Source: Actinopolyspora lacussalsi subsp. righensis
Lineage (GTDB): Bacteria > Actinomycetota > Actinomycetes > Mycobacteriales > Pseudonocardiaceae
Length of the DNA stretch: 64,000 nucleotides
NCBI RefSeq assembly: GCF_900116555.1
Contig: NZ_FPAT01000010.1
Span: 1-64,000, forward strand
Reading direction: 5' to 3'
Both the position numbers and the translations under genes were made by a program. Positions 8,648 to 49,145 of this stretch are shown one piece after another. Under the pieces are notes generated by a model, which did no database searches, had not been told where the DNA came from, and worked only from the letters and a program-made list of their open reading frames with translations. Within the stretch, counting starts at the first letter, position 1. Every line of letters begins with the position of its first letter.

Positions 8648-8757
8648 GGCGGAACCTCACGGGCCGTCTCGCTGCGGGATCCTCGACATCGAGTAGTTAC
8701 TACGCCACGTCGAGGCTGTCCTCGCGAGACGACCCGTGAGAACCCGCGGCGGTGTCG
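8648..8757 (+). repeat. Intergenic hairpin repeat family 1, copy A
   Basis: Lies between convergent genes. Begins GGCGGAACCTCACGGG. Outer arms CTCACGGGCCGTCTCGC and GCGAGACGACCCGTGAG pair almost perfectly; inner stem CCTCGAC/GTCGAGG; apical GTAG/CTAC. Bases 8648-8747 are identical to copy G at 40125-40224. About 50 bases of the linker (GGGGTTCGGCTCGG) follow, but no family 2 palindrome. Confidence 0.9.
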
Positions 8758-8899
8758 ATTGCGTAAGTGGTTGGGGTTCGGCTCGGACGCGTCCGAGAGG
8801 GCCCCACGTTCGACGGGCACAGCGGGATTCCCGGAGCACTGCTCGATGCGGTGTGGAGCGCTACTCGACGCGGGACTGTCGTGTTGGCGGTGGGATACG

Positions 8900-9283
8900 T
8901 CACTCGGTCGCGTTGACCCGAGCGATGTGCGCTCGGATCTCTCCAAGTACTTCCTGGTACGCGGGATCGGGGTACATGGTCGTGGCCAACCGCACCTGGG
9001 TGTGCGCCTCGTTCAGTCTGCCCTGCCGTTGCAGGGTTCTTCCCAGTACTAGTCGGGCATAGTGGTCGGACGGGTCCAGTTCGATGACTCGCAGGAACGC
9101 CAGTTCGGCACGCTGGAACTGCGCCGAGAACAGATACGCGCGTCCTGCCAGCAGCTGCACGCTCGGCTTGTCCGGATCCTCTTCGAGCACCGGACCGAGC
9201 GCGCGTAACGCCTCCAGCGGGCGTCGCTGCGACACAAGGGTTTCCGCTTTGCGGAAAGCTTCTACGGTACCTTCAGCCCTCAT
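8900..9283 (-). CDS. TPR-repeat protein
   Basis: 127 residues from ATG 9283. Two to three tetratricopeptide repeats are visible: PLEALRALGPVLEEDPDKPS, FQRAELAFLRVIELDPSDHY and LNEAHTQVRLATTMYPDP, each with the A/G-x-A spacing and the Pro at repeat ends. Probably a soluble scaffold or protein-binding module; no catalytic domain. The open frame continues to 9364, but the first 27 residues are unlike TPR sequence and lack an RBS. Confidence 0.75.
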   Translation of the reverse strand: MRAEGTVEAFRKAETLVSQRRPLEALRALGPVLEEDPDKPSVQLLAGRAYLFSAQFQRAELAFLRVIELDPSDHYARLVLGRTLQRQGRLNEAHTQVRLATTMYPDPAYQEVLGEIRAHIARVNATE

Positions 9284-9550
9284 TACCACACCAACGGTAC
9301 GACTCGATCGACGGTTCCGCCATAGTGCTCGGTCGGATGTTGCCAACTCGGTTCCCGTGATCACCCGTCGGATCGGCGCGTTCGTCGCATATGCCGGGAG
9401 CCTGACCGCGAGCCTGCGGCGGACGATCAGAGCGCCCGGTTAGGCTCGGAGGCAGTCGTCGGGCGCCCGGCCCGCACCGGCGGGACCGCCGGTGGAAGCA
9501 TCGCGGCGGGCCGTGGCGTCTCGGATTCACAAAGCTTGTTAGGAGCACAC

Positions 9551-10837
9551 GTGGCGATCATCGAGCAGGTCGGCGCTCGCGAGATCCTGGACTCGCGGGG
9601 CAACCCCACCGTCGAGGTCGAGGTGGCCCTGGATGACGGCACGCTGACCCGCGCTGCCGTTCCCTCCGGAGCATCGACCGGCGAACACGAGGCCGTCGAG
9701 CTGCGCGACGGTGCCGCCGAGCGCTACGGCGGCAAGGGCGTGGAGAAGGCAGTGGCCGGCGTGCTGGACGAGGTGGGGCCGGAGCTGGTCGGCGTGGAGG
9801 CCATCGAACAGCGCGTGGTCGACCAGAAGCTCGTCGACCTGGACGGCACTCCGACCAAGTCCAGGCTGGGGGCCAACGCGATGCTCGGTGCCTCACTGGC
9901 GACCGCCAAGGCGGCAGCCGAGTCGACCGGGCTCGAACTCTTCCGGTACGTGGGTGGCCCCAACGCGCACGTGCTGCCGGTGCCGATGATGAACATCCTC
10001 AACGGCGGCGCACACGCCGACACCGGTGTGGACATGCAGGAGTTCATGATCGCGCCCATCGGGGCCGACTCGTTCTCGGAGGCACTGCGCTGGGGCGCCG
10101 AGACCTACCAGGCGCTGAAGTCGGTGCTCAAGAGCAAGGGCATGGCCACCGGACTCGGTGACGAAGGCGGCTTCGCACCCGACCTGCCCAACAACCGCGA
10201 GGCGCTCGACCTGATCGCCACCGCCGTGGACAAGGCGGGCTACAAGCTGGGCAGGGACGTCGCGCTGGCGCTCGACGTCGCCGCGACCGAGTTCTACTCG
10301 GACGGCGTCTACCAGTTCGAGGGGGCCAAGCGCAGTGCCGAGCAGATGATCGGCTACTACACCGAGCTGCTCAACTCCTACCCGCTGGTCTCGATCGAGG
10401 ACCCGCTCTCGGAGGACGACTGGGACGGCTGGACCCGGATGACCTCCGAGATCGGTGAGAAGGTCCAGATCGTCGGTGACGACCTGTTCGTGACCAACCC
10501 GGAGCGGCTGGAGGAGGGCATCAACCGGCGCGCGGCCAACGCGCTGCTGGTCAAGGTCAACCAGATCGGCACGCTGTCCGAGACCCTCGACGCGGTGAAC
10601 CTGGCGAACTCCTGCGGCTACCGCAGCATGATGAGTCACCGCTCCGGCGAGACCGAGGACACCACCATCGCCGATCTCGCGGTGGCCACCGGCTGCGGCC
10701 AGATCAAGACCGGTGCTCCCGCCCGCAGCGAGCGGGTGGCCAAGTACAACCAGTTGCTGCGCATCGAGGAGAACCTCGGCGACGCCGCCCGTTACGCGGG
10801 TGAATTGGCCTTCCCCAGGTTCAGCGCGGAGGTGTGA
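9551..10837 (+). CDS. eno: Enolase (phosphopyruvate hydratase)
   Basis: 428 residues, a full-length enolase. It dehydrates 2-phosphoglycerate to phosphoenolpyruvate in glycolysis, in the cytosol, with Mg2+. Visible are [15 protein letters not shown] at the N-terminus, metal ligands in [16 protein letters not shown] and GDDLFVTN, the catalytic Lys in [10 protein letters not shown] and the signature [23 protein letters not shown] 9551 is chosen over the Met at 9536 because TTAGGAGCACAC precedes it. It begins the eno-ftsB-DUF501 run. Confidence 0.98.
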
Positions 10838-10840
10838 TCC

Positions 10841-11380
10841 ATGCCGACCGGGCGACCGGCACAACGCGATCGACGGAACGAGGCGGACGGCACGAGCCGT
10901 ACCCGGCAGTCGACGCGTGCGCGGCGCCCGCGCGGTGACTCGGACGGCAGGACCGCGCCGCGTCGGAGGTCCGGGCCCCGAGGGGCCCGGACCCCGGCGG
11001 GCACCGGTGGTGCGTTCAAGCTCTCCTCCACCAGACGGGCCGCCGTGCTGGCCACCCTCGTGTGCGCCATGGCGCTGAGCGTCTCGGTCCCGCTGCGCAC
11101 GTATCTCGGGCAGCTCGACGAGCTGTCCGACATGGAGCAGCGGGAGCAGCAGCTGAGCGAGGAGGTGCAGCGGCTGTCGGAGCGGAAGGCGGAACTGTCG
11201 GACCCGAGTCGGTTGGAGGCCGAGGCGCGGGAGCGCCTCGGCTACGTCCGGCCGGGCGAAACGCCCTACATCGTCGAGTTGCCCTCCGAGGAGAAGCAGC
11301 AGTCCGAGGAGAAGGCCGCTCCGGAGTCGAAACCGTGGTACCAGCGGATGTGGAACACCTTCACGGGAGAGGGGAAGTGA
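10841..11380 (+). CDS. FtsB/DivIC-like septum formation initiator
   Basis: 179 residues. A basic disordered N-terminus (to about residue 60) precedes one transmembrane helix (RAAVLATLVCAMALSVSVPL) and an extracytoplasmic coiled coil (LDELSDMEQREQQLSEEVQR), then the family motif RLGYVRPGETPY. FtsB-like proteins link FtsL and FtsQ in the divisome. It starts three bases after eno and overlaps DUF501 by GTGA. Equivalent to Rv1024 of M. tuberculosis by synteny. Confidence 0.9.
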   Translation: MPTGRPAQRDRRNEADGTSRTRQSTRARRPRGDSDGRTAPRRRSGPRGARTPAGTGGAFKLSSTRRAAVLATLVCAMALSVSVPLRTYLGQLDELSDMEQREQQLSEEVQRLSERKAELSDPSRLEAEARERLGYVRPGETPYIVELPSEEKQQSEEKAAPESKPWYQRMWNTFTGEGK

Positions 11381-48265: not shown

Positions 48266-48430
48266 GGTGTCCTCCCGCTGACTGCGAACTCGATGCGTAC
48301 GCAAGCCTGCGAGTGCCGCGCACCCTGCGCAACAGGAGGCTTCACGGCTGTACAACCTGCTCGACTCGTGGTCGGTTGGTAGGGGGGCGACTGCTCACCC
48401 TGTATCACCGAAAGATGTTTGGAGCGTGCT

Positions 48431-48922
48431 GTGACCACCACTTCGGGTGACGAGTCGCTGGACGAGTTGGACGCGCGCCTGCTGCTGTTGCTCTCGGACG
48501 AGCCCCGCCTGCCGGTGCTGGAGTGCTCCCGCCGGCTGGGCGTGGCGCGTGGCACGGTGCAGGCCCGCATGGACCGGATGATCCGCCACGGGATACTGCG
48601 CGGTTTTCCACCGGAACTGGATCTCGCCGCCGTGGGATACGGGCTGACCGCGTTCGCGGTGCTGGAGATCGCTCAGGGGCAGCGCGGTTCGGTGGCCGAG
48701 CAGCTGTCCGCGATAGACGAGGTCTGCGAAGTACACGCCACCACCGGACAGGGTGATCTGTTCGTGCGCATGGTCGCGCGGTCCAACGACGACCTGCAGC
48801 GCGTCATCGACCGGGTGGTGGCGGTAACCGGTGTGTTGCGCACTTCCACTTCCATCGCACTGTCCACACCGGTGCCTCCCCGCGTGCGCCCGTTGCTGGA
48901 GCGCCTGGCCGATTCCGAGTGA
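48431..48922 (+). CDS. Lrp/AsnC family transcriptional regulator
   Basis: 163 residues from GTG 48431. N-terminal HTH (LDELDARLLLLLSDEPRLPV, then the recognition helix GVARGTVQARMDRM) and a C-terminal RAM effector domain (VCEVHATTGQGDLFVRMVAR). Amino-acid-sensing regulators of this type usually act on the divergent neighbour; hppD lies 165 bases away, so tyrosine or phenylalanine is a reasonable but untested effector. Confidence 0.9.
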   Translation: MTTTSGDESLDELDARLLLLLSDEPRLPVLECSRRLGVARGTVQARMDRMIRHGILRGFPPELDLAAVGYGLTAFAVLEIAQGQRGSVAEQLSAIDEVCEVHATTGQGDLFVRMVARSNDDLQRVIDRVVAVTGVLRTSTSIALSTPVPPRVRPLLERLADSE

Positions 48923-49064
48923 CCGATCCGGGGCCGCTGCTCGAGGTGTCCCGCGACGCGGCGGGGCAACCCGCTCACGTGCCGATGTCCGTGCGGCGAG
49001 CGAGCCGCTCCGCGATGTGTTCCGGGAGGGGTTCGCGACGGGGAGGACCCGCCGAACCGAAGTT

Positions 49065-49088
49065 AACCGCCCCTGCGCCGGGGCGGTT
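49065..49088. terminator. Hairpin between the convergent Lrp and greA genes
   Basis: AACCGCCCC-TGCGCC-GGGGCGGTT, perfect 9-bp stem; could serve both genes. Confidence 0.6.
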
Positions 49089-49091
49089 GAT

Positions 49092-49145
49092 GGTCGTTAC
49101 CCGATGTCGCGGCCCCGGAACGAGAGCCGATGGGAGGTTCCGCCG
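49092..49145 (-). repeat. Half copy of family 1 (copy H)
   Basis: TGGTCGTTACCCGATGTCGC then GGCCCCGGAACGAGAGCC and GAGGTTCCGCC match the right part of reverse-oriented copies D and E. The partner arm is missing, so the nested hairpin cannot form; it looks like a deletion relic. Confidence 0.7.

Follow-up and report, generated by a model that had tools for sequence, protein, structure and literature searches.

What is a family of hairpins with covarying stems doing between the genes of an actinomycete? The question is raised by a 64,000-nucleotide (nt) stretch of Actinopolyspora lacussalsi subsp. righensis (contig NZ_FPAT01000010.1, positions 1 to 64,000; hereinafter the window), in which an initial annotation described seven full copies and one half copy of an intergenic repeat of about 112 nt with compensatory stem changes. 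It considered that the repeat could be a structured RNA, an element akin to the repetitive extragenic palindromes (REPs) or miniature inverted-repeat transposable elements (MITEs) moved in trans, or a nucleoid or transcription barrier. We recovered all eight copies where it had placed them (A to H, Table 1) and name the family R1. We propose, with a rough probability of 0.55, that R1 consists of structured, non-autonomous palindromic repeats belonging to one actinobacterial family, copied as a hairpin into slots at gene ends, with the fold selected on one strand. Strand polarity, spacing from stop codons, a second repeat termed R2 and turnover between strains are new relative to the initial annotation.

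Distribution of the R1 family

A covariance model built from 35 R1 copies of the own genome (G000) was used to search for further members; the best 40, 62 or 150 candidates were scored per search, and the copy numbers are lower bounds. The own genome of 4.92 Mb contains at least 141 matches at E<=0.01 (best 150 of 7911 candidates scored). At E<=0.001 matches were obtained in 16 of 61 genomes, comprising the own genome and relatives, one of the 16 showing a single weak hit that we take for chance. At the stricter threshold of E<=1e-5, a sample of 150 genomes from the bacterial family yields 39 with R1, in 13 of the 46 genera, some genomes having one match only. Copy number varies within the genus: there are 115 matches in G002 and at least 62 in G008, and the 4.2 Mb genome of another genus member, G006, has only 3, against at least 62 in each of seven other genus relatives.

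A second route of collection employed a pattern in the 5' arm alone, run over genomes of named species, by which at least 80 loci were listed. Among these, 71 belong to Saccharopolyspora, 3 to Amycolatopsis, 2 to Sciscionella and 1 each to Halopolyspora, Saccharomonospora, Streptomyces and a deltaproteobacterial metagenome-assembled genome. Though it covers the 5' arm only, the pattern lay within a full model match at 76 of the 79 loci tested (L196 being left out); the model was unmatched at the remaining three, namely the deltaproteobacterial genome, the Streptomyces locus and one of the Sciscionella loci. The named genera that carry R1 are, we presume, Pseudonocardiaceae. Copies were thus gathered either with the structure-containing model, or with the 5'-arm pattern and then the same model.

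The initial annotation had proposed such a covariance-model search, holding that confinement to this window without structural conservation would speak against the family; both the copies and their structural conservation extend far beyond the window. Its failure to recognize a named family is consistent with our searches. An Rfam scan of the window returned no family at its gathering score on R1, only a cobalamin riboswitch and tRNA, the best weak match at copy F being MIR918 (25.8 versus 268 bits), and none of the papers listed by literature searches of open PubMed Central (PMC) papers describes R1.

Fold, covariation and strand polarity

R1 is one long inverted repeat, whose outermost helix has only 5 pairs and then meets a U.U mismatch. 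In the orientation of the initial annotation the folding energy of copy F is -62.6 kcal/mol (z -3.6), and on the complementary strand it is -76.2 kcal/mol (z -8.1), with 0 of 200 shuffles as good in either case. The hairpin described there is hence real, but its better-paired strand is the complement of the one given; we term this better-folding orientation the folded strand. It is complementary to the coding strand of the adjacent gene.

In 94 cross-genus rows, which include one opposite-strand reading kept both in the pairing count and in the tree-aware test below, 97.3% of the stem cells are paired, compared with 79.6% in shuffles and 43-49% with slid partners, and 498 stem cells show both-sided changes as against 154.5 in shuffles. 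Because this alignment had been fitted to the model, 166 distinct copies were realigned without structure, the alignment that contains the window copies contributing the first 75 of its 112 rows. Eleven column pairs, all of them hairpin pairs, exceeded the highest value of 40 null alignments in which columns were simulated along the tree (a home-made procedure, not R-scape); the remaining hairpin pairs, many of them nearly invariant, fell below this maximum. The stem variants that had first drawn attention to the repeat are present in the alignment of copies, and their covariation holds outside the window too and stands out from a phylogenetic null. This supports what was earlier inferred from the covariation, namely that the folded form is selected or that copying passes through it. 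Two unpaired features are also kept across genera: a U.U that has G.U and U.G as its neighbors, and the internal loop GAGGAC opposite CCCGCA, for which a kink-turn was considered and set aside. A GTAG sits inside the apical stem.

The two strands of R1 are not equivalent. Over 20 stem positions the ratio of G.U to A.C on the folded strand is 122:9 in the genus and 135:21 elsewhere, these counts not being independent events as the copies are related; an exception within the genus is stem position 21/101, with A.C in 33 of 72. RNA folding energy is lower on the folded strand in all six copies that were folded both ways. Given the G.U excess and these energies, a constraint on RNA or single-stranded DNA (ssDNA) is more likely than one on a symmetric double-stranded palindrome.

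Position at gene ends

Calling R1 intergenic was true but understated its placement, since in most copies the left end lies at a near-constant distance from a gene boundary. Among the 35 best-scoring copies of the own genome, which are not a random draw, 27 begin 32-47 nt 3' of a co-directional stop codon (mean 37.1, standard deviation 3.1), and three of the other eight precede the start of a divergent gene by 48-52 nt. Distances to the right-hand gene are broad (39-906 nt, median 190), with one of the 34 copies that have such a gene falling within 28-50 nt (Fisher p 6e-11). In the window five of the eight copies (A, B, E, F and H) stand 33-43 nt 3' of a stop. In the other genera 41 of 66 co-directional distances are within 20-49 nt, as computed from 82 of the 94 rows (12 shorter-locus rows, one of them an opposite-strand reading, were left out), 79 of which have a left gene without overlap. 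Genes were called with a home-made codon-usage script that has not been benchmarked. Convergent, tandem and divergent gene settings are all found.

The extent of about 112 nt given in the initial annotation stands for the hairpin; loosely conserved flanks add about 33 nt on the left, which we call the leader, and about 30 nt on the right. Since conservation stops about 33 nt leftward of the hairpin, little is left between R1 and the stop codon. The leader and the right-flank consensus have a degenerate motif like TTGCGTGGGTGGTC in common, so that the hairpin lies between loose direct repeats. Short palindromes of the type GGCGATTTCGCGAGAAATCGACGCC occur in the window at 23502-23605, 26950-27000 and 46102-46152, and also in the right flanks of several R1 copies, often downstream of R1.

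Within the window the GGCGGAACC end comes first on the + strand in A, B, F and G and on the - strand in C, D, E and H. Copy B has the weakest model score of the seven full copies (105.2 bits), and in the half copy H similarity stops at the apical loop.

Table 1. R1 copies of the window, with folded strand and gene context
Feature	Position	Folded strand	Context
R1 copy A	8648..8757	-	GGCGGAACC end 43 nt 3' of stop of gene 7807-8604(+)
R1 copy B	11938..12050	-	33 nt 3' of stop of gene 11383-11904(+)
R1 copy C	14072..14184	+	divergent genes on either side: 258 nt to 14443-15534(+), 148 nt to 12244-13923(-)
R1 copy D	16437..16548	+	52 nt 5' of start of gene 16601-17554(+)
R1 copy E	23653..23765	+	37 nt 3' of stop of gene 23803-25281(-)
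Copy F leader (between stop codon and hairpin)	33891..33927	-	differs in G061 and G007; gene end and hairpin near-identical
R1 copy F	33928..34039	-	37 nt 3' of stop of gene 32853-33890(+); top model match
R1 copy G	40125..40234	-	
R1 half copy H	49090..49144	+	gene-proximal half, profile positions 1-57; 37 nt 3' of stop of gene 49182-49676(-)

Strain differences, the probable unit of copying and R2

R1 differs between strains far more than the neighboring genes do. The presence of the window copies varies by species, and they recur in the same intergenic slots: at the site of copy C there is a half copy in G003, at that of copy E the element stands at both convergent gene ends in G005 where the own genome has one, and at that of copy F R1 is without a copy in G001, G002, G005 and G006. 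Even in G061, a genome of the same species, the gene and the hairpin are kept at the F and D sites with a different leader, the B and C sites hold a different hairpin variant, and the right flank differs at A and G; only the E and H sites are nearly identical. Of 32 further sites sampled, three (L005, L006 and L023) had no match in G061. The other 29 comprise 19 with a full R1, 4 where R2 takes its place, 4 where R1 is truncated and 2 without R1. Over the 19 full-R1 sites, median identity (gap columns counted) is 0.96 for the gene end, 0.88 for the leader, 0.94 for the hairpin and 0.64 for the right flank.

The hairpin can be identical where its surroundings are not. Seven copies in G002 have hairpins identical over 112 nt and unlike leaders, three of which are mutually similar (26-30/36), and in the window copy A matches copy G at 108 of 110 bases, the flanks being different on both sides. 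In two G002 loci, L306 and L307, the right-hand sequence is shared as well (251/260 bases), and the same genome has two tandem R1 pairs that repeat at an interval of 184-186 nt.

The second hairpin repeat, R2, shares the apical GTAG...CTAC with R1. Among the loci examined in G061, G004, G002, G003 and G005 we found 23 full-length hits 88-100% identical to its core (e.g. L015 1698-1784). R2 occupies the slot behind stop codons where R1 stands elsewhere, and at L042 and L053 of G004 it lies between the gene and R1. In the same genome L014 is a chimera, the left part of R2 being fused to the right part of R1 at the apical stem. Several truncations and this one chimera break at the apical loop, which is the center of the palindrome, and at two loci (L011 in G061 and L022 in G004) the leader is left and the hairpin lost.

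A model for R1 and its alternatives

Under the reading that we favor, the copied unit would be the hairpin of about 110 nt, with the leader and right flank conserved more loosely. Copies stand in fixed orientation just behind a stop codon or, less often, outside the start of a divergent gene. To judge from the strain comparison, new elements would appear at the gene-proximal slot, and older ones would be pushed outward, swapped for R2, cut at the apical loop or removed when the hairpin is deleted; R2 between gene and R1 in G004 and the tandem R1 pairs of G002 suggest such outward displacement. The fold of the folded strand is kept through compensatory changes, tolerated G.U pairs and the two conserved unpaired internal loops, and a putative trans-acting factor may recognize the folded single strand, whether ssDNA or RNA, during copying.

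Several observations weigh against this proposal. No mobilizing protein was found. Among ten genus genomes the Y1 transposase family (PF01797) matched in eight, with no match in the R1 carriers G002 and G008, and the reverse-transcriptase family (PF00078) in one, G002 (G002:C1:1621462-1622088). The copy F query matched neither a plasmid nor a phage collection. We saw no clean empty site bearing a target duplication, empty F sites being confined to genomes only 80-83% identical. Random insertion would not predict the distribution in G003, where none of the 139 copies analyzed lies at 1.48-2.71 Mb (C1); likewise on the terminus side, G005 has a gap of 2.34 Mb (1.39-3.73 Mb from dnaA) among the 63 copies listed. 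Ectopic gene conversion between existing copies could equally explain identical hairpins with unlike leaders. Finally, DNA energies prefer the folded strand in five of the six copies, copy D being reversed by 0.2 kcal/mol, and the polarity does not separate RNA from ssDNA, because G.T and A.C differ in DNA too. As for the mechanism of copying, retro-copying is suggested by the constant gene-proximal end and the loss of the far half; we reject it as the main mechanism because PF00078 is unmatched in nine of the ten genus genomes.

We also considered R1 as an element of replication polarity. Its orientation relative to the replichore is biased (94/139, 49/68 and 41/63), the 139 copies of G003 being those left of 142 matches after three overlapping opposite-strand readings were set aside and the other counts covering the copies listed, on contig C2 only in the case of G002. 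The gene strand bias of four mutually orthologous regions is about equal (33/50, 34/54, 36/51 and 39/56), and this candidate was rejected for the regions counted. In G021, whose gene strands were not part of the comparison, 10 of 10 R1 copies among those listed share their replichore orientation. A nucleoid or replication marker accordingly draws no support from orientation.

A possible but less probable explanation is that R1 acts in place as a functional RNA or transcription barrier, its spread being secondary. Transcription of the complementary strand toward the gene boundary would make the hairpin and would then be stopped or processed before the gene. The near-constant spacing to gene boundaries and the tolerance of G.U on one strand fit such a role, as does a perfect stem-loop found to the right of R1 in 79 of 93 copies of other genera (shuffles 8; in the own genus 18 of 75, shuffles 6). 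Antisense transcription in Saccharopolyspora erythraea is, according to an RNA sequencing study, enriched at gene 3' ends (PMC3610266). Further support comes from g56, a low-copy genus in which six sampled carriers have 1-3 R1 matches each. At its gatB-like sites, compared over 39 pairs in four genomes, 29 pairs are constant, 4 compensatory, 3 one-sided and 3 broken in at least one; at its dioxygenase-subunit-like sites, over 36 pairs in two genomes, 29 are constant, 5 compensatory, 2 one-sided and 0 broken; a third site pair shows no compensatory change. (Both gene labels derive from a reading of the translations and not from a family search.) That orthologous copies are kept largely paired at one gene supports selection in place; it points to a function where they reside and not to mobility alone, and this too counts against the mobile-hairpin proposal. 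Nevertheless, R1 is unlike between same-species genomes at 10 of the 29 sites. The flank consensus has no T-run adjoining the hairpin on either side or strand, as the U-tract of an intrinsic terminator would require, and is without promoter-like sequence, no promoter scan having been made. Moreover, convergent, tandem and divergent settings all occur, and in tandem pairs it is not evident what would transcribe the folded strand.

A more speculative extension, which we regard as doubtful, is that R1 and R2 are substrates of an uncharacterized system that acts on one folded strand at gene ends, where it places hairpin modules and exchanges them by way of a shared joint, the apical GTAG/CTAC stem. 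The idea of a shared joint rests on the chimera of an R2 left part with an R1 right part and on several half copies broken at the apical stem.

It is improbable that the fold is free of selection and the covariation mechanical, with template switching in an imperfect palindrome copying arm onto arm and recombination spreading the result. Stems and compensatory changes can both arise and persist through template switching during replication, as one published account describes (PMC8794818), and the breaks at the palindrome center are what it might leave. However, copying of one arm onto the other would erase the mismatches that are kept across genera (the U.U with G.U and U.G, and the GAGGAC/CCCGCA loop), and it would not prefer G.U over A.C on one strand.

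Relationship to known repeats and recombination sites

According to a published study, REPs are palindromes of 20-40 bp with a GTAG or CGTC tag at one end (PMC3733652); no mention of Saccharo-, Actino-, Streptomyces, Mycobacter- or Frankia was found in it. Like the REP and REPIN elements with their RAYT (TnpA-REP) transposases, R1 occurs in many extragenic palindromic copies that often lie beside gene ends, and GTAG is found in both R1 and R2. Unlike REPs, it is about 112 nt long and has its GTAG in the apical stem and not at an end. Because the Y1 match is missing in G002 and G008, which carry R1, we reject a REP/RAYT system in the strict sense; the REP reading of the initial annotation, so understood, fails on size, on the position of GTAG and on Y1.

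R1 also resembles the ERIC (enterobacterial repetitive intergenic consensus), BOX and MITE-type repeats, which are imperfect palindromes of about 100-180 nt that are intergenic and encode no protein. It differs from them in its near-constant spacing from the stop codon and its orientation, in its conserved internal loops and in its strong strand polarity; where diverged species have an empty F site, the target duplication of MITEs was not seen. With the candidate structured RNAs of Rfam it shares a covariation-supported hairpin and conserved internal loops.

The attC sites of integrons likewise have a folded bottom strand, stand behind a stop codon and keep structure more than sequence. That R1 is such a site, at which a tyrosine recombinase would act on the folded bottom strand and exchange gene-end segments, would account for these features and for exchanged segments whose limits are the gene end and the hairpin ends or apical loop, but is very improbable: R1 is dispersed among syntenic genes, no cassettes move around the window copies, as gene order there is conserved across species and no cassette array is seen, and the integron box pair is not recognized at the R1 ends. 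R1 is thus REP/MITE-like in lifestyle and attC-like in its folded bottom strand behind the stop codon, and we file it under neither.

Other features of the window

A cobalamin riboswitch (31572-31765, 91.8 bits) lies 5' of the genes at 31828-33890. Two direct repeats of 247 nt, 89% alike (61376-61622 and 61925-62171), each overlap a reverse-strand open frame of 84-87 amino acids. Three diverged repeats of 251 nt within called genes (5736-5986, 8248-8498 and 14860-15110) are apparently paralogous gene parts, and a tandem array with a 22-nt unit, TCGTGACCGCGAACGGCACCGG, is found at 38510-38619.

Implications

R1 is an abundant structured repeat in actinomycetes, antibiotic producers among them. 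It joins covariation, an address at gene ends and turnover in one element, and so allows three causes that are usually confounded to be told apart: a resident RNA under selection, a mobile fold under selection, and a palindrome corrected mechanically. Its strand polarity offers a direct experimental handle, and the factor involved could reveal a new hairpin-recognizing recombination or RNA activity. The strain-variable 3' ends of genes carrying R1 are relevant to the engineering of expression and to annotation. Were R1 and R2 indeed substrates of a common system acting on one folded strand, this would represent an integron-like or REP-like activity without an integron or a RAYT, remodeling core genes at their 3' ends throughout an actinobacterial family.

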